Positions 67 to 44,065 of a stretch of 44,065 bases of DNA are shown piece after piece. Position 1 is the stretch's first letter. Every line of letters begins with the position of its first letter. The position numbers and the translations under genes were made by a program. Source of the DNA: a virus; IMG/VR virus record IMGVR_UViG_3300048836_000016, positions 1-44,065 of that record. One strand, 5' to 3'. The notes beneath the pieces were generated by a model that was given only the letters and a program-made list of their open reading frames with translations, was not told the origin of the DNA and ran no database searches.

Positions 67-127
67 AGAGGAGGTGAGGGGTGGGGAGTAATCCCCACTA
101 AACCACAAAGACGGTCCCAAGTCCGTC
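1..127. repeat. Terminal redundancy, left copy
   Basis: Identical base for base to 43939-44065. An exact 127-bp overlap at both ends of a contig is the usual trace of a circular assembly graph, so the molecule is probably circular or circularly permuted, with a unit of about 43,938 bp. It carries the last 22 codons of the gene that starts at 43702 plus leader sequence of the next genes. A true short direct terminal repeat is possible but not needed to explain it. Confidence 0.95.
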
Positions 128-4165: not shown

Positions 4166-5002
4166 ATGAATACGGACATCAGGATAAGCATATCATTCAA
4201 GGGTCATCGAAAGAGACTTAAACTGCAACAGTTACTGGGTAAGGGGAGTACGGACTACCTGCTTGACCTATGGATAAACACAGCTATGAACCATCCTAAG
4301 GGTATTCTCACAGATATGGATGAGTATGACATAGCAATTGAAGCAGGATATACAGGAGACGCTCATAAATTTGTCGATGCGTTGCTCGCTTGTGGGCTAT
4401 TAGAACAGCATAATGACGGAACATACTATATACATGACTGGGATGAGCATCAGCGGTATGTCATGTTTGCTCCTGAACGCAGTGAGAAGGCTAAACGAGC
4501 GGTAGAGGCACGGGAGAATAAGAGGGTATCTAAAAATACAAATGAGATCATCTCAATTGACGTTTTAGATGATCTAAATGTTGACGTTAGTTCATCCCCT
4601 TCTCCTGCTCCTTCTCCATCTCCTAATCCTGTTCCTTCTCCTAAACCTAAACCCTCTCCAAAGAAGGGTAAGGATAAAAGCAACAGTGAGCATTTGGATT
4701 TATTTGATGAGTTCTATAATGCTTATCCAAGAAAAACAGAAAAGAGTGCTGCGAGGAAAAATTGGATCGCACGTATGAATGACAAGGAGAACCCTAACGA
4801 CATTATTAAAGCTGCAATTGCCTTTGCACAGATATGCAAGAAAGAAGGAAGGGAGGAGAAATTCACAAAGCACCCTGCAACCTTCATCTCATCAACAAAC
4901 GTTTGGAAAGATTATCTCAATATGTCCACTTCCTTCAAGGGTGAACTTACAAAAGAGGAGATAGAGCAACAGGAAAGGTTGATTGCCAAGTATGGAAAGT
5001 AA
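4166..5002 (+). CDS. Replication initiator / replisome organiser
   Basis: The start at 4166 is preferred because AGAGGAG lies at 4151-4157; an upstream in-frame ATG at 4091 would add a basic tail inside the erf gene. The 278-residue product has three parts: an N-terminal winged-helix-like domain (about 1-100, beginning MNTDIRISISFKGH), a Ser-Pro/Lys-Pro low-complexity linker (about 145-170), and a C-terminal domain (about 180-278) with FDEFYNAYPRK, AARKNW and KHPATFISS, a pattern found in phage replication proteins that recruit helicase loaders. A DnaC-like loader follows directly. The gene carries internally, at 4564-4578, the palindrome that is repeated in the intergenic region near 43500-43600. 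Confidence 0.75.
   Translation: MNTDIRISISFKGHRKRLKLQQLLGKGSTDYLLDLWINTAMNHPKGILTDMDEYDIAIEAGYTGDAHKFVDALLACGLLEQHNDGTYYIHDWDEHQRYVMFAPERSEKAKRAVEARENKRVSKNTNEIISIDVLDDLNVDVSSSPSPAPSPSPNPVPSPKPKPSPKKGKDKSNSEHLDLFDEFYNAYPRKTEKSAARKNWIARMNDKENPNDIIKAAIAFAQICKKEGREEKFTKHPATFISSTNVWKDYLNMSTSFKGELTKEEIEQQERLIAKYGK
4564..4578. promoter_or_regulatory. Intragenic copy of the TTTAGAT-G-ATCTAAA palindrome
   Basis: A 7-bp inverted repeat around a single G, inside the codons for Leu-Asp-Asp-Leu just before the initiator's Pro-rich linker. The 19 bases 4563-4581 are identical to 43541-43559 in the divergent intergenic array. Its place inside the initiator gene recalls the lambda origin inside gene O. A protein-binding site for the initiator or another regulator is inference. 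Confidence 0.55.
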
Positions 5003-5900
5003 AACTATCGAAGAAGCGATGAAACAACCTTTTGATGAGGATGCAGCATGGCGGGATTTAATAACCTGGCTCAAATGGAAGTTCGGGGACTTTGAGGAAT
5101 ACCAAGTAGAGGATAAGCAGTTTATCGAACTCAGTAGGGCGTTTGACCACGAACAGGACTGCAAGGTATGTACGGACATCACAGAGTGCCATCACTCAAT
5201 GGCAAGGCTTATACCTTATCAGACACAGGTTAATGGCTTTACCGTAGTCAAGGTTGCCGCCGAGTGCTGCCAGGGGGTAAAAGAAGTCAAGGAAACAAAG
5301 AATAAGACAGACATGCTAGAGGCTTCAATGATCCCACGGAACAGGAGGCGGAACTCTTTCACTAACTTTGAGACAACAGGAATGTCGGTACAGCTTATGG
5401 CGGCAAAAGGGCTTGCCCTTGAATGTGCGGAGAATGGAAGGGGCTTGCTTATCGGAGGGAATGTAGGTTGCGGAAAGACACACCTTGCCCTTGCTGTCGC
5501 ACTCCATGGCATAGAACATGGCAAGAGTGCGCTATTTTACTCACTTCCTGAGTTACTTGATAAGATAAGAAAGGAGGTAATAAATGGGTCTACAGACCTA
5601 CTTGACAGAGCCAAAGTGGTTGATATACTGGTCATAGACGATTGCGGCACACAGCGGTTCAAGGACTTCGGCGATGAGACTATCTTTAAGATAGTTGATG
5701 CCCGCTATAACAATAAACTACAGACAATTATCACAACAAATGCAGTTGGTATGCAACAGTTTAAGTCTATGCTGAAGGGGAAAGAGGGGGAGAGCGACAG
5801 GTCAGAAAGAATATGTTCAAGGATAATAGAGATGACAGAACAGATATGGTTGCCGAACGAGGGAGATTACAGGAAGGTCAAAAAGGAGGAAGGGGATTGA
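4992..5900 (+). CDS. DnaC-like AAA+ helicase loader
   Basis: A 302-residue protein from the ATG at 4992; a TTG at 4983 is the alternative. An N-terminal region has a Cys/His cluster (CKVC at 57-60, ECHH at 66-68, ECC near 92) that may bind zinc. The AAA+ core has Walker A GGNVGCGKTH (155-164), Walker B ILVIDD (212-217) and a sensor TTNA (248-251), as in DnaC/IstB-type loaders. It would load the host replicative helicase at the phage origin together with the upstream initiator. The genome encodes no helicase, primase or polymerase that I can recognise, consistent with recruitment of host machinery. Confidence 0.85.
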   Translation: MESKTIEEAMKQPFDEDAAWRDLITWLKWKFGDFEEYQVEDKQFIELSRAFDHEQDCKVCTDITECHHSMARLIPYQTQVNGFTVVKVAAECCQGVKEVKETKNKTDMLEASMIPRNRRRNSFTNFETTGMSVQLMAAKGLALECAENGRGLLIGGNVGCGKTHLALAVALHGIEHGKSALFYSLPELLDKIRKEVINGSTDLLDRAKVVDILVIDDCGTQRFKDFGDETIFKIVDARYNNKLQTIITTNAVGMQQFKSMLKGKEGESDRSERICSRIIEMTEQIWLPNEGDYRKVKKEEGD

Positions 5901-6577
5901 TAGAATACTACAACGAAGATTGCATGGAGGGCATGAAGCGGTATAAGGATAAGCACTTCTCGCTAGCTATTTGCGACCCGCCTTATGGAATAGGGATTTG
6001 CGGCAAATCAAAACTTTCCGGCGCAAGCAATAAGGAATACGCCGTAAAGAACTGGGACGAATCGCCGCCATCCGCTGACTACTTTGACGAACTAAGGCGC
6101 GTTAGCAAAGAGCAAATTATTTGGGGCGCCAATTTCTTCGATGGTGTTGGACTTGTGGGAGGAGGAATTGTATGGAACAAGCTTGGTGTAAACATTGGGC
6201 GAAGAAACCCTATGCCAACACTGAGCGATTGCGAATATGCTTTTTGCAGCATGAGGACAAACATCAAAATGTTTTCCTACACATACATCGGGAACGTCAT
6301 TGGTAATGACTACCAAATACAAAGAGGCCCATCAGACCGCATCCACCCCACCCAGAAGCCCGTCAAGCTCTATAAGTGGTTGCTCCACAACTACGCCAAG
6401 AAAGGCGATTTAATCTTAGACACACACGTTGGCTCAGCCTCTAGCCTGATAGCTTGTTACGACATGGGTTTTGATGCAGTGGGTTTTGAACTTGACAAAG
6501 ATTACTACGAGGCAAGCAAGAAGAGATTGAATGATTTTATGATACAAGGGAAGCTGTTTAAGGAGGACACAGAATGA
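5897..6577 (+). CDS. DNA amino-methyltransferase (N6-adenine/N4-cytosine), beta type
   Basis: The TTG at 5897 is chosen: AAAGGAGG lies 7 bases upstream and TTGA overlaps the stop of the loader gene. The 226-residue product opens IEYYNEDCMEGM, has the catalytic DPPY at residues 27-30, HPTQKP at 150-155, and the SAM-binding motif I as DTHVGSASS (175-183) with VGFELD after it. Motif IV before motif I defines the beta arrangement. It probably modifies phage DNA against host restriction; target site unknown. Motif I has HVGSAS where FMGSGT is usual. Confidence 0.85.
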   Translation: MIEYYNEDCMEGMKRYKDKHFSLAICDPPYGIGICGKSKLSGASNKEYAVKNWDESPPSADYFDELRRVSKEQIIWGANFFDGVGLVGGGIVWNKLGVNIGRRNPMPTLSDCEYAFCSMRTNIKMFSYTYIGNVIGNDYQIQRGPSDRIHPTQKPVKLYKWLLHNYAKKGDLILDTHVGSASSLIACYDMGFDAVGFELDKDYYEASKKRLNDFMIQGKLFKEDTE

Positions 6578-7992: not shown

Positions 7993-8625
7993 ATGAAAAT
8001 ATTGGTTGCATGTGAAGAAAGCCAGGCTGTAACAATTGAACTAAGGAAACTGGGACACGATGCTTATAGTTGCGATATTGAACCTTGCAGCGGGGGGCAT
8101 CCAGAGTGGCATCTGCAACAGGATGTATTGCCCCTGCTAAAAGAAAAGTGGGACATGATAATTGCGTTCCCGCCGTGTACTTATCTTAGTAATGCAGGGG
8201 CAAGACACTTATGGAAAAATCACACTTTGAATATTAAAAGATATGAGATTGGGCTTAAAGCTAAAGAATTTTTTATGTTTTTTTACAATGCTCCATGTAA
8301 AAAAATAGCGATTGAAAATCCCTTACCCTCAAAAATTTACGAGTTGCCAGCCCCAAACCAGGTAATTCAGCCATATCAATTTGGACATCCATATACAAAG
8401 CGCACACAGTTATGGCTTAAAGGATTACCGATATTACAAGCAACAAATACTGTTGAACCGCAGCAAACGTGGTGTCCCAGTGGATCTTATTCAAATAAAC
8501 ATAACGAAAAACACAAAGGAATGTTCACAATAGACAGGGCGAAAAACAGGGCAAAAACCTTCCCCGGTATAGCAAAGGCAATGGCTGAACAGTGGGCGGG
8601 GATTGTAAAGGAGGATAACAAATGA
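7993..8625 (+). CDS. Cytosine-C5 DNA methyltransferase-like protein, copy 2
   Basis: A 210-residue paralogue of 1228-1887. The first 66 residues are nearly identical (MKILVACEESQAVTIE..., FPPCTYLS at 59-66, nucleophile C62), IENP lies at 107-110 and KTFPGIAKAMAEQW at the end. The middle, between the catalytic loop and IENP, and the segment after LWLKGLP differ most, consistent with different target specificity after duplication. Two bases separate the ATG from the stop of the preceding mini-protein. Expected role: cytosine methylation of phage DNA; unproven. Confidence 0.75.
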   Translation: MKILVACEESQAVTIELRKLGHDAYSCDIEPCSGGHPEWHLQQDVLPLLKEKWDMIIAFPPCTYLSNAGARHLWKNHTLNIKRYEIGLKAKEFFMFFYNAPCKKIAIENPLPSKIYELPAPNQVIQPYQFGHPYTKRTQLWLKGLPILQATNTVEPQQTWCPSGSYSNKHNEKHKGMFTIDRAKNRAKTFPGIAKAMAEQWAGIVKEDNK

Positions 8626-10049: not shown

Positions 10050-10339
10050 GCGGAGGATACTTTAATTATCATCAGTCGCAAATATGGGATATAGCACAGG
10101 ACATTAAGGAACTTATCGATAATAACCATGACCAGACGTTAGACGAGTACGGATACCAGATAGGAAAAGAGTATAGCCCTAAGACTATTGAACAGTTTAT
10201 CGAGGCGTATGACTTGTTGATACAGGCTTATATCTATACCCAACGTATTGACTGGCTTGTATCTGACGATGACGGAGAAGATAGTTTCCATGAGAGGCTG
10301 AAGGAAGATTTAAAGGAGATAAAAAATGAGCCTCAATAG
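10046..10339 (+). CDS. Conserved phage protein (MSGGYFNY family, 97 aa)
   Basis: ATGA-coupled, with GAGGAGG upstream. The sequence belongs to a conserved but uncharacterised phage family opening MSGG-x-F-x-Y, with a Tyr-Ser segment (EYSPKTIEQF) and the closing RIDWLVSDDDGEDSFHERL. It is acidic and helical, with no catalytic motif. The last bases overlap the start of the HTH gene. Confidence 0.75.
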   Translation: MSGGYFNYHQSQIWDIAQDIKELIDNNHDQTLDEYGYQIGKEYSPKTIEQFIEAYDLLIQAYIYTQRIDWLVSDDDGEDSFHERLKEDLKEIKNEPQ

Positions 10340-10532
10340 ACTTTCCCCACAGGAACTCAAAGTAGCAACGTACATAGCGCATGGTTACGATAATCAAGAG
10401 ATTGCTGATGCTATGGGGATAAGCAAACGTACAGTTGTAAACTATATGACACATTGCCTTAACCGCTTTGACATTCCATTAGGCGGAGCATCAAGGGTAA
10501 GGCTTGCGAGGAAAGTATGGGAGGAGATATGA
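10326..10532 (+). CDS. Stand-alone LuxR/GerE-type HTH regulator (68 aa)
   Basis: Residues 6-50 form a GerE/LuxR-type DNA-binding domain: LSPQELKVATYIAHGYDNQE followed by IADAMGISKRTVVNYMTHCL. There is no receiver or sensor domain, so the protein is little more than the DNA-binding unit, and dimer binding to a palindrome would be expected. AAAGGAG precedes the ATG. It could act on the palindrome array at 43500-43600; that link is inference. The stop overlaps the next start (TGATG). Confidence 0.85.
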   Translation: MSLNRLSPQELKVATYIAHGYDNQEIADAMGISKRTVVNYMTHCLNRFDIPLGGASRVRLARKVWEEI

Positions 10533-38662: not shown

Positions 38663-39045
38663 TAACTATTCCTCCCTTTCAACTCTTTATTCTCTTTATG
38701 CAAAGCATTGTTTATACACTCCATCTTGCTTAATGCCTGTGCAATAGAGTCTATAGCCTGCTCACCACTGACAGGACATTCATAATTATTCTTCGCTGTC
38801 CAATCTGCAAAGTGAAGGTGAAGCAGTTCATGGACTACGATCCATTCTAAGTTATACTCCCCGTCATAATCTGTTGGATGGAGTATCTTTATAAAGCCTT
38901 CCCTTGAGTTGATGTTAAACGTACATTCACCGAGAGCGTCAGAGTTACTAAACTCCCTTGCCCTGTAGAAGTCTATTGTTACCTCCCAGTCCTGTAAGCG
39001 TAGTATCTTCTGCCACTTTGAAGCCAGCTTAGCCAGATTGACCAT
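38662..39045 (-). CDS. Putative zinc metallopeptidase-like phage protein
   Basis: 127 residues. WQKILRLQDWEVTIDFY at the start, then LEWIVVHELLHLHFADW, an HExxH zinc motif, and a downstream GEQAIDSIAQALSKM helix that could give the third ligand. Such small proteins lie in the packaging/portal region of phages and are annotated only as putative metallopeptidases. Whether it cuts a virion or host protein is unknown. The ATG overlaps the end of the methyltransferase gene. Confidence 0.7.
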   Translation of the reverse strand: MVNLAKLASKWQKILRLQDWEVTIDFYRAREFSNSDALGECTFNINSREGFIKILHPTDYDGEYNLEWIVVHELLHLHFADWTAKNNYECPVSGEQAIDSIAQALSKMECINNALHKENKELKGRNS

Positions 39046-39814
39046 TAGGTCCTCCTTTAAATAAGGAATCCTGCTTGTTTATATTAATGACAGCTTGATT
39101 TATTCTGTCTTGTGCTATCTTAAAATATCCTTCGTCTAGTTCTATTCCAATAAAGTTGCGGTTAGTGTTGACACAGGCAACTCCTGTTGTGCCGCTGCCC
39201 ATACAGTTATCAAGTACCGTCTCACCTTCGTTGGTGTACGTGCGGATCAGGTATTCCATGAGGGCTACGGGCTTCTGTGTGGGGTGTACTGTGCCGCGCT
39301 CCACAACAGGGAAGTCTAGAACCTGTTTTGGGTAACGCTTGCCGTCGCTCCCCTCACGATGCGTCCCGAATTTCCCATAGTTGTCGGTCAGCCCATTCTC
39401 AACCACCTTACCGGCCTTGTTGCCGTAAGGCTCGCCGCTACCGAATTGCGGATTGTATGTGCATTGAGAACGATAGAAGACAACGATGTCTTCCTTGTCG
39501 CGCATCGGCATTTTTTTAGCGTTCAGATGCCCGGTGCCCTTTGGCTTCCGCCAAACCCAATCATACTTGAAATAGGAAAGCTGGCTGCAAACCAGCGTGC
39601 TCGTAAACGGCTGCGCCGCCGTAAGCACCACCGCGCCATTCGGCTTCACTACCCGCCAGTATTCCCGCCACAACTCATCAAGCGGCAACACGCTATCCCA
39701 CTTGTTCTGTGTCGTCCCATACGGCAAATCGCACAGGATCAGATCCACGCTTTCATCAGGGATATCTTTCATCTTCTCCAGGCAATCACCCTGTATTAAC
39801 TTAATATCCACCAT
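39029..39814 (-). CDS. DNA amino-methyltransferase, beta type (second)
   Basis: The ATG at 39814 is preferred (GGGG eight bases upstream) over an upstream TTG. 261 residues: DLPY at 29-32, KPKGTGHLNAKKMP, HPTQKP (177-182) and SAM motif DNCMGSGTTG (202-211), with FIGIELDEGYF. Probably an N6-adenine or N4-cytosine enzyme of the type used to protect phage DNA. Unlike the first (5897-6577) it lies in the late operon. The DNA of the central part is more GC-rich than its surroundings, suggesting acquisition. Confidence 0.88.
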   Translation of the reverse strand: MVDIKLIQGDCLEKMKDIPDESVDLILCDLPYGTTQNKWDSVLPLDELWREYWRVVKPNGAVVLTAAQPFTSTLVCSQLSYFKYDWVWRKPKGTGHLNAKKMPMRDKEDIVVFYRSQCTYNPQFGSGEPYGNKAGKVVENGLTDNYGKFGTHREGSDGKRYPKQVLDFPVVERGTVHPTQKPVALMEYLIRTYTNEGETVLDNCMGSGTTGVACVNTNRNFIGIELDEGYFKIAQDRINQAVININKQDSLFKGGPNGQSG

Positions 39815-39845
39815 CACATTATCCCCGCTATTTCTGTGAGTTCCA

Positions 39846-40625
39846 TCACACTTTACCAAGTAAAACTGTGATTTTCTTATTCTTCTTGCCTCCGTGCAAC
39901 TCTACAATGGGACAGCCTAACTCCTCAGGTGGGAAATTCTTTTGTATAGCGTAGCCTTCCCTCTCCTGATAGCTCCCCGAATTGACAAACCACATAGTTT
40001 TCTTGATAACCTCATCGCAATGTCGTTGTGGTATATAGACATTCTCGGGAAAAGAAATGATCCCGTGAGTATGCCCCATACAATAACAATCACAGATGAC
40101 AATGTTCTTTAACCGCTCTATTGCGTTAGCCTTAGCACCTCTTGTACGCCCGTTAGAACTCCCATGAGTGAGATATATCGTATAGTAATTATCACGCCCA
40201 CGAGCTGGATTATATCCAAAACGCACTTTGAGAAGCACTTCATGCCCAAAGAATGGGACATCTAACTTGTATGAGAGTATCTCAGGTGTAGACAAGCCTA
40301 CCTCCTTATCTATCCTATCCTCGTGGTTGCCTGTAATAATGCCCCATATGCGGTCTTTAATGGGTAACAAGGCTTTCTCAGTGACCTCTATCTGCTCCCT
40401 TGGTGAATACTTCTGCCTGTATATATCACCTACGGAGCATTTTGTAACTACATCCATCATATCCCCATTGAGAACACAATACCTGTTTGGAGCCGCCTTG
40501 ATATAGTCTATGTACTGCTTAAACAGCGCATCATTGAAGAACGGGCTTCCGATGTGCATATCAGACAGCGGAAGAAACTCTACGGTCTCGTACTCATTCG
40601 ACAGGTTGACCGGATATACTCGCAC
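39846..40625 (-). CDS. Calcineurin-like metallophosphoesterase
   Basis: 259 residues with all motifs of the family: SDMHIG (D22, H24), NGDMMD (53-58), GNHED (99-103), YLTHG (H154) and GHTHG (184-188). It could act on DNA ends, nucleotides or proteins; phages carry such enzymes with several roles. GTG start at 40625 with AGGAGGG upstream. It is the first gene after the terminase terminator and the structured gene-free region. Confidence 0.88.
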   Translation of the reverse strand: MRVYPVNLSNEYETVEFLPLSDMHIGSPFFNDALFKQYIDYIKAAPNRYCVLNGDMMDVVTKCSVGDIYRQKYSPREQIEVTEKALLPIKDRIWGIITGNHEDRIDKEVGLSTPEILSYKLDVPFFGHEVLLKVRFGYNPARGRDNYYTIYLTHGSSNGRTRGAKANAIERLKNIVICDCYCMGHTHGIISFPENVYIPQRHCDEVIKKTMWFVNSGSYQEREGYAIQKNFPPEELGCPIVELHGGKKNKKITVLLGKV

Positions 40626-40741: not shown

Positions 40742-40893
40742 TAACTTGTGTCTCACAAAAGGCACAAGATGAAGCACAAGTTAAATTGTGTCTCAATGGT
40801 GAGTGACAATACCTCACATTTCCTCGTTGGGCGATAGATGCCAGTTCTATCCTCATTGAGACATCAATTCCGTGATACCCCTTTAACTTGTGC
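40742..40893. ncRNA. Nested inverted-repeat element, candidate structured RNA
   Basis: A perfect 12-bp pair (40774-40785 with 40882-40893) encloses a perfect 10-bp pair (40789-40798 with 40854-40863), which encloses two hairpins: GTGAG/CTCAC (40799-40803 with 40813-40817) and GATAGA/TCTATC (40833-40838 with 40846-40851). Together they make a three-way-junction fold. An upstream segment (40742-40750) can pair with 40775-40783 instead, competing with the outer stem, and TTGTGTCTCA occurs twice (40746-40755, 40786-40795). Strand and function unknown; a binding site or origin is the alternative. Confidence 0.55.
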
Positions 40894-41082: not shown

Positions 41083-42486
41083 TTACCGCTTACCCCTGCC
41101 ACGCCTGTCAAGGTGATTGTAGTCCTTCTTAACCCTCGAAGGTATGAGCGACAGAGTATCCATCATAGCGTTACATTGCACTTCCTCGGCAAACGTCATA
41201 GCAAGCGCATCAGCCTTATCAGGTGAAGGCAGTCCACGTTTACGCATGTCCTCTTTGCGCTCTAGCCCTATCTTCCCGTTGGCTGAATAGTAATACTCAG
41301 GAGCGCAGAGGTCATCACGCAGGTCGGTGTTGTCAGGAACACAGCCTCCCGCCTCCAGCCACTCCTTCATTTTCCACCACATCTCGACACGCTTGTTTAC
41401 AAACCGAGTTGAATCACCAGCCGAGCCTCCGAAGTAGACAGGCATCGGGTTAAAATGCAGAGTGCGAAGCGTATCAACTACCCCTGCTCCCCATCCTGTA
41501 ACATCAACAAAGCAAGCATCGCAGTCATTCTCACGCCATATACGTGCTATAGCCTGTGCAAACTGTGCAGTATCCACGTTGCGCGAACTCCATAACTCCT
41601 GCGCAACCAAACCTTGACGCATATAAATAACGCTGCTGTCATCACCAAAATAGCTGACATCACAGCCAAGGATCTTGGGCATATGTCCGTAAACGTTTAT
41701 CCTGTGCGCCTGGCGGATAGACTTGTCAATCAAATCAGGGCTTATAAGCTGCGCCATACTAGTTGACGGGAACTCACCGAGAACGCGCACTTTATAAATA
41801 TCACTGTCGGCTCCGTAGGCTTCGGCAATCTCAACGGCGTAGTCTGGACTTACATGCGGGCTATCTAGACAACTGAACGTCAGCCGCTGCCATCTGTCTC
41901 TGTTGCGGTGGAACGCATCATAGAAATAGCCGGTGTTCCTTGTAGGGTTTGCGGCCATGAGAACTCTTGCGCCAACCGTTGACAATGTACCTTGAGCAAC
42001 CTGGAACACAACGTCAGGAACTCCGGAGGCTTCGTCTATGAGAAAGAACAGGTTGTCATCATGGAACCCCTGTAATGCTTCCGGGCTTTCTTTTCGACCT
42101 GTACGAGCGACAGCAAACCCACTGGCACCGCTATAGCGTACCATGTCGGCGGTTATCTCAAGGGAAGATTTCCACGGCTCAAGCAGTTTGTCCCCCCACT
42201 TGCGGACCTCCGACCATAACACATCGCTTAACTGATGAGCCGTAGGAGCTGTAACAGGGATTTTAATATGCTGATGAGTTGTAATCCCCCATAATATCAG
42301 CCAGGACAACAACGTTGATTTGCCCGTACCATGCCCGGACTTAATAGCCACTCTTGCATTGTCGCAGGCAAAAGCCCGTAACGCTTCAGTCTGTTGAGGC
42401 GAAGGAACAACTCCGAGACACTCAATAACAAACTTAACGGGATCGTTACGCCATGAGATAACAAGGTCAACTATGCGCTCATCCAT
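41083..42486 (-). CDS. terL: Terminase large subunit
   Basis: 467 residues from the ATG at 42486 (GAGGG eight bases upstream; a GTG lies 3 bases before it). ATPase: Walker A SGHGTGKST (about 50-58), Walker B FFLIDEAS (147-154) and the coupling segment LMAANPT. Nuclease: GCDVSYFGDD (about 274-283), CFVDVTGWGAG (Asp near 328) and SPDKADALAM (Asp near 425), the RNase H-like acidic triad. It drives DNA packaging and cuts the concatemer. It overlaps the small terminase stop by eight bases. Confidence 0.93.
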   Translation of the reverse strand: MDERIVDLVISWRNDPVKFVIECLGVVPSPQQTEALRAFACDNARVAIKSGHGTGKSTLLSWLILWGITTHQHIKIPVTAPTAHQLSDVLWSEVRKWGDKLLEPWKSSLEITADMVRYSGASGFAVARTGRKESPEALQGFHDDNLFFLIDEASGVPDVVFQVAQGTLSTVGARVLMAANPTRNTGYFYDAFHRNRDRWQRLTFSCLDSPHVSPDYAVEIAEAYGADSDIYKVRVLGEFPSTSMAQLISPDLIDKSIRQAHRINVYGHMPKILGCDVSYFGDDSSVIYMRQGLVAQELWSSRNVDTAQFAQAIARIWRENDCDACFVDVTGWGAGVVDTLRTLHFNPMPVYFGGSAGDSTRFVNKRVEMWWKMKEWLEAGGCVPDNTDLRDDLCAPEYYYSANGKIGLERKEDMRKRGLPSPDKADALAMTFAEEVQCNAMMDTLSLIPSRVKKDYNHLDRRGRGKR

Positions 42487-43012
42487 CACTTTTACCCTCA
42501 GAAGGGAGGTATAAAGTATCCTCCCGAGTTAAAACAGGTGGCTCTGCGTGGCTTGTAGTGAGTGCCTGCCTAGCTTCGACCATCTCTAACAGCTGTTTGG
42601 GCGACATTTCAACGTTTAATTGAGTTGTAGTTTTCATTGCCAAGACATCAGCTATTAAATTAAGTGAGTTGCTAGCCGAACGAGCGTCTAGCATTTTATA
42701 AACTTCGAGGCCGTCCTTATCCTTGAGCGGAGTCAATATTTCCTGCATGCCATTTTTTGCAATCCTTACTGCTGCTGAAACGACCCATTCCTTATCGATC
42801 TTAACATGTTCATAAACTTCTGCGACAATTGGGCGGGACAATTCGTTGATACGATTCTTAACTTCGAACTTTTTAAGCAACTTGTTTCCAATTGCTCCGG
42901 CAGTTTTTTCCGAATAACCCGCTCTAATAGCGGACTGCGTTCCATTTGCGTCTTTAATATACTCCTGGCAAAACAATTCTTGTTTGTCATTTAATTTGCG
43001 AATTCGCCCCAC
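42479..43012 (-). CDS. terS: Terminase small subunit
   Basis: KLNDKQELFCQEYIKDANGT then QSAIRAGYSEKTAGAIGNKL is the classic N-terminal helix-turn-helix of small terminases (LT-x-KQ-x-x-F...N-x-T-x-A-x-x-AGYS), followed by an oligomerisation region and TTQLNVEMSPKQLLEMVEAR. No good start: GTG at 43012 or 43015 sits only 2-5 bases from AGAGG, with TTG at 43024/43027 as alternatives. A longer frame to 43120 would be translated through a terminator hairpin and is rejected. About 177 residues. Confidence 0.82.
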   Translation of the reverse strand: MGRIRKLNDKQELFCQEYIKDANGTQSAIRAGYSEKTAGAIGNKLLKKFEVKNRINELSRPIVAEVYEHVKIDKEWVVSAAVRIAKNGMQEILTPLKDKDGLEVYKMLDARSASNSLNLIADVLAMKTTTQLNVEMSPKQLLEMVEARQALTTSHAEPPVLTREDTLYLPSEGKSDG

Positions 43013-43038
43013 CACCTCTTGCAACAAAAAATATCTAT

Positions 43039-43073
43039 AAAAAAATCCCCTTGAGAACGAAGTCTCAAAGGGA
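43039..43073 (-). terminator. Intrinsic terminator in the leader ahead of terS
   Basis: Minus strand TCCCTTTGAGA, loop CTTCGT, TCTCAAGGGGA (43073 to 43046) with one G-T pair in 11, followed by seven Ts (43045-43039). It lies between the leftward promoter (43121-43150) and terS, so the leader transcript would be only about 75 nt unless transcription is allowed through. A leader segment TCAAA...TTTGA could pair with part of the 5' arm and act as a weak antiterminator. Confidence 0.82.
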
Positions 43074-43120
43074 ATAATTTGAATTATTAAGCTACAAAGC
43101 CTAGTTGTGTTACTATACAT

Positions 43121-43150: not shown

Positions 43151-43498
43151 GCCCTTTTTCCCCTCTCTCAAAATATCCGCAATTATTCGCAATTAATCTA
43201 TCCGCTCTTACGAACACAGTCATAATCAAACATTACAAACTCCAACTTTAAATTACAGTCCCAATTTAATATTTGACTTTAAAATATATGTCAGTGAGCG
43301 ATAGCGAACGGCAGTATTTTAATTTGCCTTCATTTTTGGCGTTCCTGGGGTTAGAGATTTTAATCTTTAGATCTTAATCTTTAAATCTTTTAAGTACTTA
43401 GGATCTTAAAAGATTCTTTATTATATCATGCCTGTCAAGTACCTCCGGAGACACAATTTAAAAAATAAAGTGTGAACTTGCAAAGTCTTGCTATCACT

Positions 43499-43600
43499 GC
43501 TCCGTATCTAAATTGCAATTTTAGATGATCTAAAAGTGCATTTTAGATGATCTAAATGTGTGTTTTAGATGATCTAAATTTTAATTTTAGATATAAAAAA
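43499..43600. repeat. Array of TTTAGAT-G-ATCTAAA palindromes at 22-bp spacing
   Basis: Three full copies at 43520-43534, 43542-43556 and 43564-43578 (centres 43527, 43549, 43571), each a 7-bp inverted repeat around a G. Half-sites continue the exact register on both sides: ATCTAAA at 43506-43512 (centre 43505) and TTTAGAT at 43586-43592 (centre 43593). A spacing of 22 bp, about two helical turns, puts all sites on one DNA face. It is either an initiator iteron array or a cooperative operator. A sixth copy is at 4564-4578. Confidence 0.8.
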
Positions 43601-43640
43601 GATGGGCCTATAGACCTATATACAACTGCCGTGTAAGGTG

Positions 43641-43649
43641 TATTATATA
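43641..43649 (+). promoter_or_regulatory. Weak candidate -10 of the rightward early promoter
   Basis: TATTATATA lies 52 bases upstream of the first early ATG. No good -35 is found at 17-18 bases upstream (ATATAC at 43618-43623), so activation by a protein bound to the palindrome array may be needed. Low confidence. Confidence 0.25.
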
Positions 43650-43701: not shown

Positions 43702-44004
43702 ATGACGGCAGCAATTAAAAACTACAGTGGAAAGACATGGAAATTTATTCAGGACTATTATAGCAAGAACCCAGAAGGACATTATTTCGATCACGACACA
43801 TTAAAGTTTTTTGGAGAACGCACATCGGAAATGAGAGTATTAAAAAATACAACAGTAATTAAAAATTACAAGGGTGAAAAACAGGAATGTTATATTTTAT
43901 CATCTTTACAGCGTAATCACCCAAGCGGACCCACACGGAAATATACTTATTTTGATATAGAAACGCTTGATCATGTTATCTATGTTGCAGAATTTAACAA
44001 GTAA
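43702..44004 (+). CDS. First early protein, unknown function (100 aa)
   Basis: ATG at 43702 follows GGGGGAGAG. Its last 66 bases are repeated at 1-66. The product opens MTAAIKNYSGKTWKFIQDYY, is rich in Tyr, Lys and Asn, and has FGERTSEMRVLKNTTVIKNY; the second half reads like a small winged-helix layout (helix, then VIKNYKGEKQECYILSS and YTYFDIETLDHVIYV strands). That is only an impression. As the first gene after the control region it may be an early regulator or host-takeover protein. No family recognised. Confidence 0.75.
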   Translation: MTAAIKNYSGKTWKFIQDYYSKNPEGHYFDHDTLKFFGERTSEMRVLKNTTVIKNYKGEKQECYILSSLQRNHPSGPTRKYTYFDIETLDHVIYVAEFNK

Positions 44005-44065
44005 AGAGGAGGTGAGGGGTGGGGAGTAATCCCCACTAAACCACAAAGACGGTCCCAAGTCCGTC
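43939..44065. repeat. Terminal redundancy, right copy
   Basis: Exact copy of 1-127. It contains the 3' end of the 43702 gene and the first two leader hairpin segments. See the left copy; merging the two gives the circular unit. Confidence 0.95.

Follow-up and report, generated by a model that had tools for sequence, protein, structure and literature searches.

In the Bacillus phage SPP1, the initiator gp38 binds to oriL, which is located inside gene 38, and to the intergenic oriR, and its binding to oriR is thought to arrest replication forks and to start the synthesis of concatemers (PMC6316719, PMC3485210). The O gene of phage lambda also holds its own origin, and the initiator O binds to the iterons (PMC7466680). 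Here, we describe a comparable arrangement in an uncultured phage (IMG/VR record IMGVR_UViG_3300048836_000016). The window that was analyzed is the whole virus record of 44,065 bases. It carries a 127-bp terminal repeat, and for that reason the genome is probably circularly assembled. Two arrays of the same 22-bp phased sites, one in the control region between the early and late genes and one in the gene of the replication initiator, are therefore separated by about 4.96 kb on the circle. By analogy with SPP1, these arrays are probably one or two replication origins.

The intergenic array and the control region

The intergenic array (43506-43592) consists of four complete ATCTAAA-N7-TTTAGAT units of 21 bp each, laid end to end with an exact pitch of 22 bp. 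The same eight arms can also be parsed as three perfect 15-bp palindromes with the sequence TTTAGATGATCTAAA, located at 43520-43534 (with GATC at the centre), 43542-43556 and 43564-43578, and one half-site at each end in the same 22-bp register (ATCTAAA at 43506-43512 and TTTAGAT at 43586-43592). This was the description given in the initial annotation, and the palindromes, the outer arms and the exact register were all confirmed, although the half-sites disappear when the eight arms are read as four complete units. The four-unit parse seems the cleaner one, as it leaves no half-sites, and the 7-1-7 parse is a better match to the 22-bp phased palindromes of one relative, L040; either may correspond to the footprint of the protein. 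Genome-wide, there are 12 perfect 7-1-7 palindromes, and only the arm of TTTAGATGATCTAAA recurs (four copies). In 300 dinucleotide shuffles, no 7-1-7 arm occurred more than once, and the TTTAGATGATCTAAA palindrome was never found. The three copies in the control region had been noticed before, but a fourth perfect copy, at 4564-4578, had been overlooked.

The control region is bounded on the left by the gene for the terminase small subunit (42479-43120, minus strand), which is the first leftward late gene, and the first rightward early gene (43702-44004, plus strand) encodes a protein of 100 amino acids with no known function. In line with the initial annotation, which placed the array beside AT-rich repeats between the early and late promoters, a block of AT-rich direct repeats (ATCTTTAGATCTTA / ATCTTTAAATCTTTTA, 43358-43430) adjoins the array on its left side. 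This block is a candidate DNA unwinding element, and the 60-bp window at 43366 ranks among the 0.15% least stable in the genome (99.85th percentile of instability). The block also contains an extra TTTAGAT half-site (43366-43372), exactly 154 bp (7 x 22) from position 43520, which may be a coincidence.

The intergenic array could chiefly be an operator by which the initiator represses or activates the early promoter, with only the array in the initiator gene serving as origin, and we give this a real but less than even chance. About 25 bp to the right of the array lies a weak candidate early rightward promoter (43619-43646, plus strand, TATACA-16-TATTAT, 9/12 matches), the only promoter-like site detected from the array to the first early gene, which fits such a role, and since no second array was seen in the records of the relatives discussed below, a second origin is not a habit of the family. 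On the other hand, promoter-like sites in this region are not above background (6 found versus 4.6 expected in shuffles), the AT-rich repeat block next to the array is what an origin would need, and the functions of operator and origin are not mutually exclusive. Sequence cannot separate the two, and a replication role is favored because the AT-rich repeats adjoin the array and because of the SPP1 precedent. The cumulative GC skew, suggested earlier as a check for an origin at this place, turns at the control region and near 13 kb. The second turn coincides with a switch in gene orientation, so the skew follows the coding strand, is uninformative here, and was rejected as an origin sign.

Several other elements were found in the control region and elsewhere in the genome. 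A strong hairpin resembling a Rho-independent terminator (43073-43046, minus strand, 11 pairs followed by a T-run) is located where the leftward late region begins and overlaps the 5' end of the listed open reading frame of the terminase small subunit, which suggests a later start codon for this gene and possibly antitermination of the late genes. A Twister-P5 self-cleaving ribozyme (73-126, plus strand, repeated at 44011-44064; 57.8 bits, gathering threshold 37.6) lies just past the first early gene, within the terminal repeat, and a skipping-rope RNA (40791-40861, minus strand; 45.2 bits, gathering threshold 36.7) is located between a phosphoesterase gene and the gene for the terminase large subunit. 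Two early proteins, encoded at 1228-1887 and 7993-8625, are similar and both start with MKI, followed by CEESQAV.IELRKLGH.AYSCDIEPCSGGHPEWHLQ. The first of these had no Pfam match, and the pair looks like a duplicated gene.

A second chain within the initiator gene

The gene at 4166-5002 (plus strand) encodes a replication initiator of 278 amino acids (phrog_9474, E 6.9e-29; phrog_270, E 4.2e-16). The AlphaFold2 model of this protein (mean pLDDT 79.6, pTM 0.40) comprises a winged-helix-like N-terminal domain, a long helix (residues 102-127), a disordered linker (about 133-170) and a helical C-terminal domain. With this model, Foldseek matched viral replisome organizers (best E 1.5e-9). The fold search against the PDB gave nothing significant (best E 0.17), its weak matches including winged-helix regulators and one complex of a plasmid Rep protein with DNA, and the sequence search against the PDB returned low-complexity matches only. 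The initiator gene is adjoined by the gene for a DnaC/DnaI-like helicase loader (4983-5900, plus strand; phrog_50, E 2.7e-43), and the phage also encodes an exonuclease, an ERF recombinase, an SSB and a VRR-nuclease.

The fourth perfect palindrome (4564-4578) is part of a chain of three ATCTAAA-N7-TTTAGAT-like units with a 22-bp pitch, located within the initiator gene at 4528-4592. When the genome was scanned for six-arm chains with this pitch, 37 of the 42 arm bases matched here, compared to 42 of 42 in the intergenic array, 24 at the best unrelated place in the genome and 27 in the best of 200 shuffles; in the 44 kb, this chain of arms occurs at exactly two places, the control region and the initiator gene. 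The core AGATGATCT has five copies in the genome, all within these two arrays. The perfect palindrome in the initiator gene has an independent-base expectation of about 1e-5, and the joint probability of the codons that it needs, given the protein, is about 0.0016. The chain covers approximately codons 121-143, where the long helix ends and the linker starts. In a generic test against synonymous-codon shuffles, the repeat cluster in this gene was matched by 14 of the 39 shuffles and was not significant; the support for the chain comes from its identity to the intergenic array.

One could argue that the chain in the initiator gene is a decaying remnant of an origin whose function has been taken over by the control region. 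Three of its arms are imperfect and it has no AT-rich neighbor, whereas the intergenic array is perfect. However, the preservation of most arm bases within a coding sequence and the low probability of the codon combination of the perfect palindrome speak against decay, and we consider a remnant unlikely. The in-gene array reaches the 98th percentile of instability, which arises from the sites themselves. There is no obvious AT-rich unwinding element beside it, and a pyrimidine-rich tract is found there instead. This tract (4600-4660), directly past the array, codes for Ser-Pro repeats and contains the most pyrimidine-rich 40-mer of the plus strand. Similar C/T-rich runs also occur past the in-gene repeats of two relatives (L008 and L023).

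Repeats in the initiator genes of distant relatives

Searches of viral contigs with single proteins (the initiator, the loader and the head-tail adaptor) and of genome contigs with the initiator protein yielded no close relatives. The DNA sequence of the array had no match in viral contigs, only short, weak phage matches (best E 0.004), and only weak AT-rich matches in plasmids, of which the best was to a stretch lacking annotation in two records of Neisseria (E 6e-4). For the comparison with related phages that the initial annotation had called for, distant relatives were therefore used, namely 80 loci with distantly related initiators, which gave 55 distinct initiator genes, including that of the window. 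Clusters of repeated 10-mers were counted when they exceeded all 39 synonymous-codon shuffles. Clustered mid-gene repeats beyond this synonymous expectation were found in 15 of the 55 initiator genes and in none of the 139 genes taken as controls from these loci. Most clusters in initiator genes fall between 0.36 and 0.59 of the gene length, and their spacings are mainly 10-12 and 21-23 bp, i.e., one or two helical turns. For several records taken as a whole, the cluster in the initiator gene is the strongest or second strongest of all clustered repeats. About one quarter to one third of the distant relatives show significant repeats within the gene. Relatives with a clear in-gene motif had no second array in the records examined, many of which may be fragments.

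In L040, there are four copies of the motif GGTTCNCACAGAACC, one of which has a single mismatch. They are spaced at exactly 22 bp and have the 7-1-7 palindrome geometry. A search for terminase relatives gave one useful phage, L150/L305, whose terminase is 46% identical, and its initiator gene contains iterons with spacings of 11, 22 and 12 bp, after which comes an AT-rich run that encodes Asn and Asp. Another terminase relative (L148) has a similar divergent layout, but carries a different type of initiator and no repeats. The homologues that are most similar over the full length (L013, L024, L026 and L043) have no in-gene iteron array, and for this reason in-gene repeats are common but not universal in this initiator family.

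These comparisons bear on the identity of the binding protein, for which the initial annotation had proposed the initiator, a LuxR-type protein or a host factor, and for which it had left the choice between origin and operator open. The sequence data single out the initiator as the most plausible of the three candidate binders, because its own gene holds the 22-bp chain at a position that is occupied by repeats in many relatives, and nothing points to the other two. The LuxR/GerE-type protein (10326-10532), which has a clear GerE domain (Pfam E 7e-13), would have to bind both arrays and control early transcription, and palindromic sites with 7-bp arms do suit dimeric helix-turn-helix regulators. 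However, the operators of such a protein would be confined to promoter or control regions of the genes that it regulates, and the second chain is located in the coding sequence of the initiator. Binding by this protein would leave the position of that chain, in the linker-coding region and where the relatives have their repeats, unexplained. Moreover, of 11 relatives tested, three had sub-threshold GerE matches and none had a match above the cut-off, whereas the initiator was present in all, and we regard this alternative as very unlikely.

A host factor or an unrecognized phage repressor might also bind the arrays, in which case the in-gene copy would be an operator for the silencing of replication. 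GATC is scarce in the genome (0.40 of expected) but stands at the centre of every palindrome, which could mark the site of a methylation-sensitive protein of the host or the phage. Nevertheless, distant phages whose motifs are unrelated in sequence also carry phased repeats in this part of the initiator gene. Such repeats at a common position fit a site evolving together with the initiator and not a single host factor, which makes this explanation highly improbable. Aside from GATC, the genome is strongly depleted in GGCC (0.16 of expected), CCGG (0.34) and CGCG (0.16), and it encodes two N6/N4 DNA methyltransferases (39029-39859, minus strand, and 5813-6577, plus strand). Control by methylation of the central GATC was considered and found to be unsupported, the target sites of the methyltransferases not being known.

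Proposed function and comparison with known origins

We consider it highly likely that the initiator is the protein that binds the arrays. That it binds both of them, with the in-gene array as an origin of the type found in its family and the intergenic array as a further origin, a site for fork arrest or regulation, or both, is in our view likely. Whether the intergenic array is itself an origin appears evenly balanced. In the proposed mechanism, initiator dimers would bind to the ATCTAAA/TTTAGAT arms. The 22-bp pitch, corresponding to two helical turns, would place all units on one face of the DNA, so that several dimers may form a single nucleoprotein complex, which would melt the nearby AT-rich DNA and, together with the helicase loader (4983-5900), bring in the replicative helicase. 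The array at 4528-4592 would then be the family-type origin, embedded in the region coding for the linker, and the array at 43506-43592 a second, more perfect site beside the AT-rich block and the early promoter region, possibly related to the first as oriR is to oriL in SPP1. The AT-rich block at 43358-43430 would lend itself to strand opening beside this second site. An SPP1-like switch in replication is conceivable, given the exonuclease, ERF recombinase, SSB and VRR-nuclease, and autoregulation of the early promoter would be an equally simple additional role. More speculatively, the array may have been copied, or be moving, out of the initiator gene to the control region between early and late genes, with a single protein then both initiating replication and switching transcription, and the disordered linker of the family may exist partly because its DNA is the origin, although we find this combination rather doubtful.

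If correct, the origin of an uncultured phage and the binding site of its initiator have been predicted from sequence alone. As clustered mid-gene repeats with a spacing of one or two helical turns are frequent in a large initiator family, they may offer a general way to read phage origins, and the array outside the gene makes the question raised by SPP1, the purpose of a second initiator site, testable in an unrelated phage.

Relatives with phrog_9474/phrog_270-type initiators (L040, L027, L077, L089 and L150) are like the window in the position of the repeats in the gene and in their one- or two-turn spacing, and L040 also in its 7-1-7 palindromes at 22 bp, but their motif sequences are wholly different and no second array was seen in the records examined. 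Compared to phage lambda (PMC7466680), the window shares inverted-repeat iterons located centrally in the initiator gene and, in the broad sense of a lambda O-type system, a helicase loader gene beside that of the initiator. In lambda there is a single array, with the adjacent AT-rich region within the gene, whereas in the window the in-gene array is followed by a pyrimidine-rich tract and a second array lies outside the gene. Bacillus phage PM1 was considered as a stand-in for SPP1, but the annotation given to its initiator is DnaD-like and not that of a gp38 homologue, and for that reason PM1 was left out of the comparison. SPP1 itself resembles the window in having one array in the initiator gene (37 of 42 arm bases in the window) and a second, intergenic one, in the combination of repeat units with AT-rich DNA, which in the window adjoins the intergenic array, in the neighboring helicase loader, and in the genes for a phage exonuclease, an annealing recombinase and an SSB. 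The two differ in that the arrays are about 5 kb apart in the window and 12-13 kb apart in SPP1, in that the second array of the window is located in the divergent control region of the early and late genes, and in the sequence of the units and their 22-bp palindromic chain, which are the window's own.
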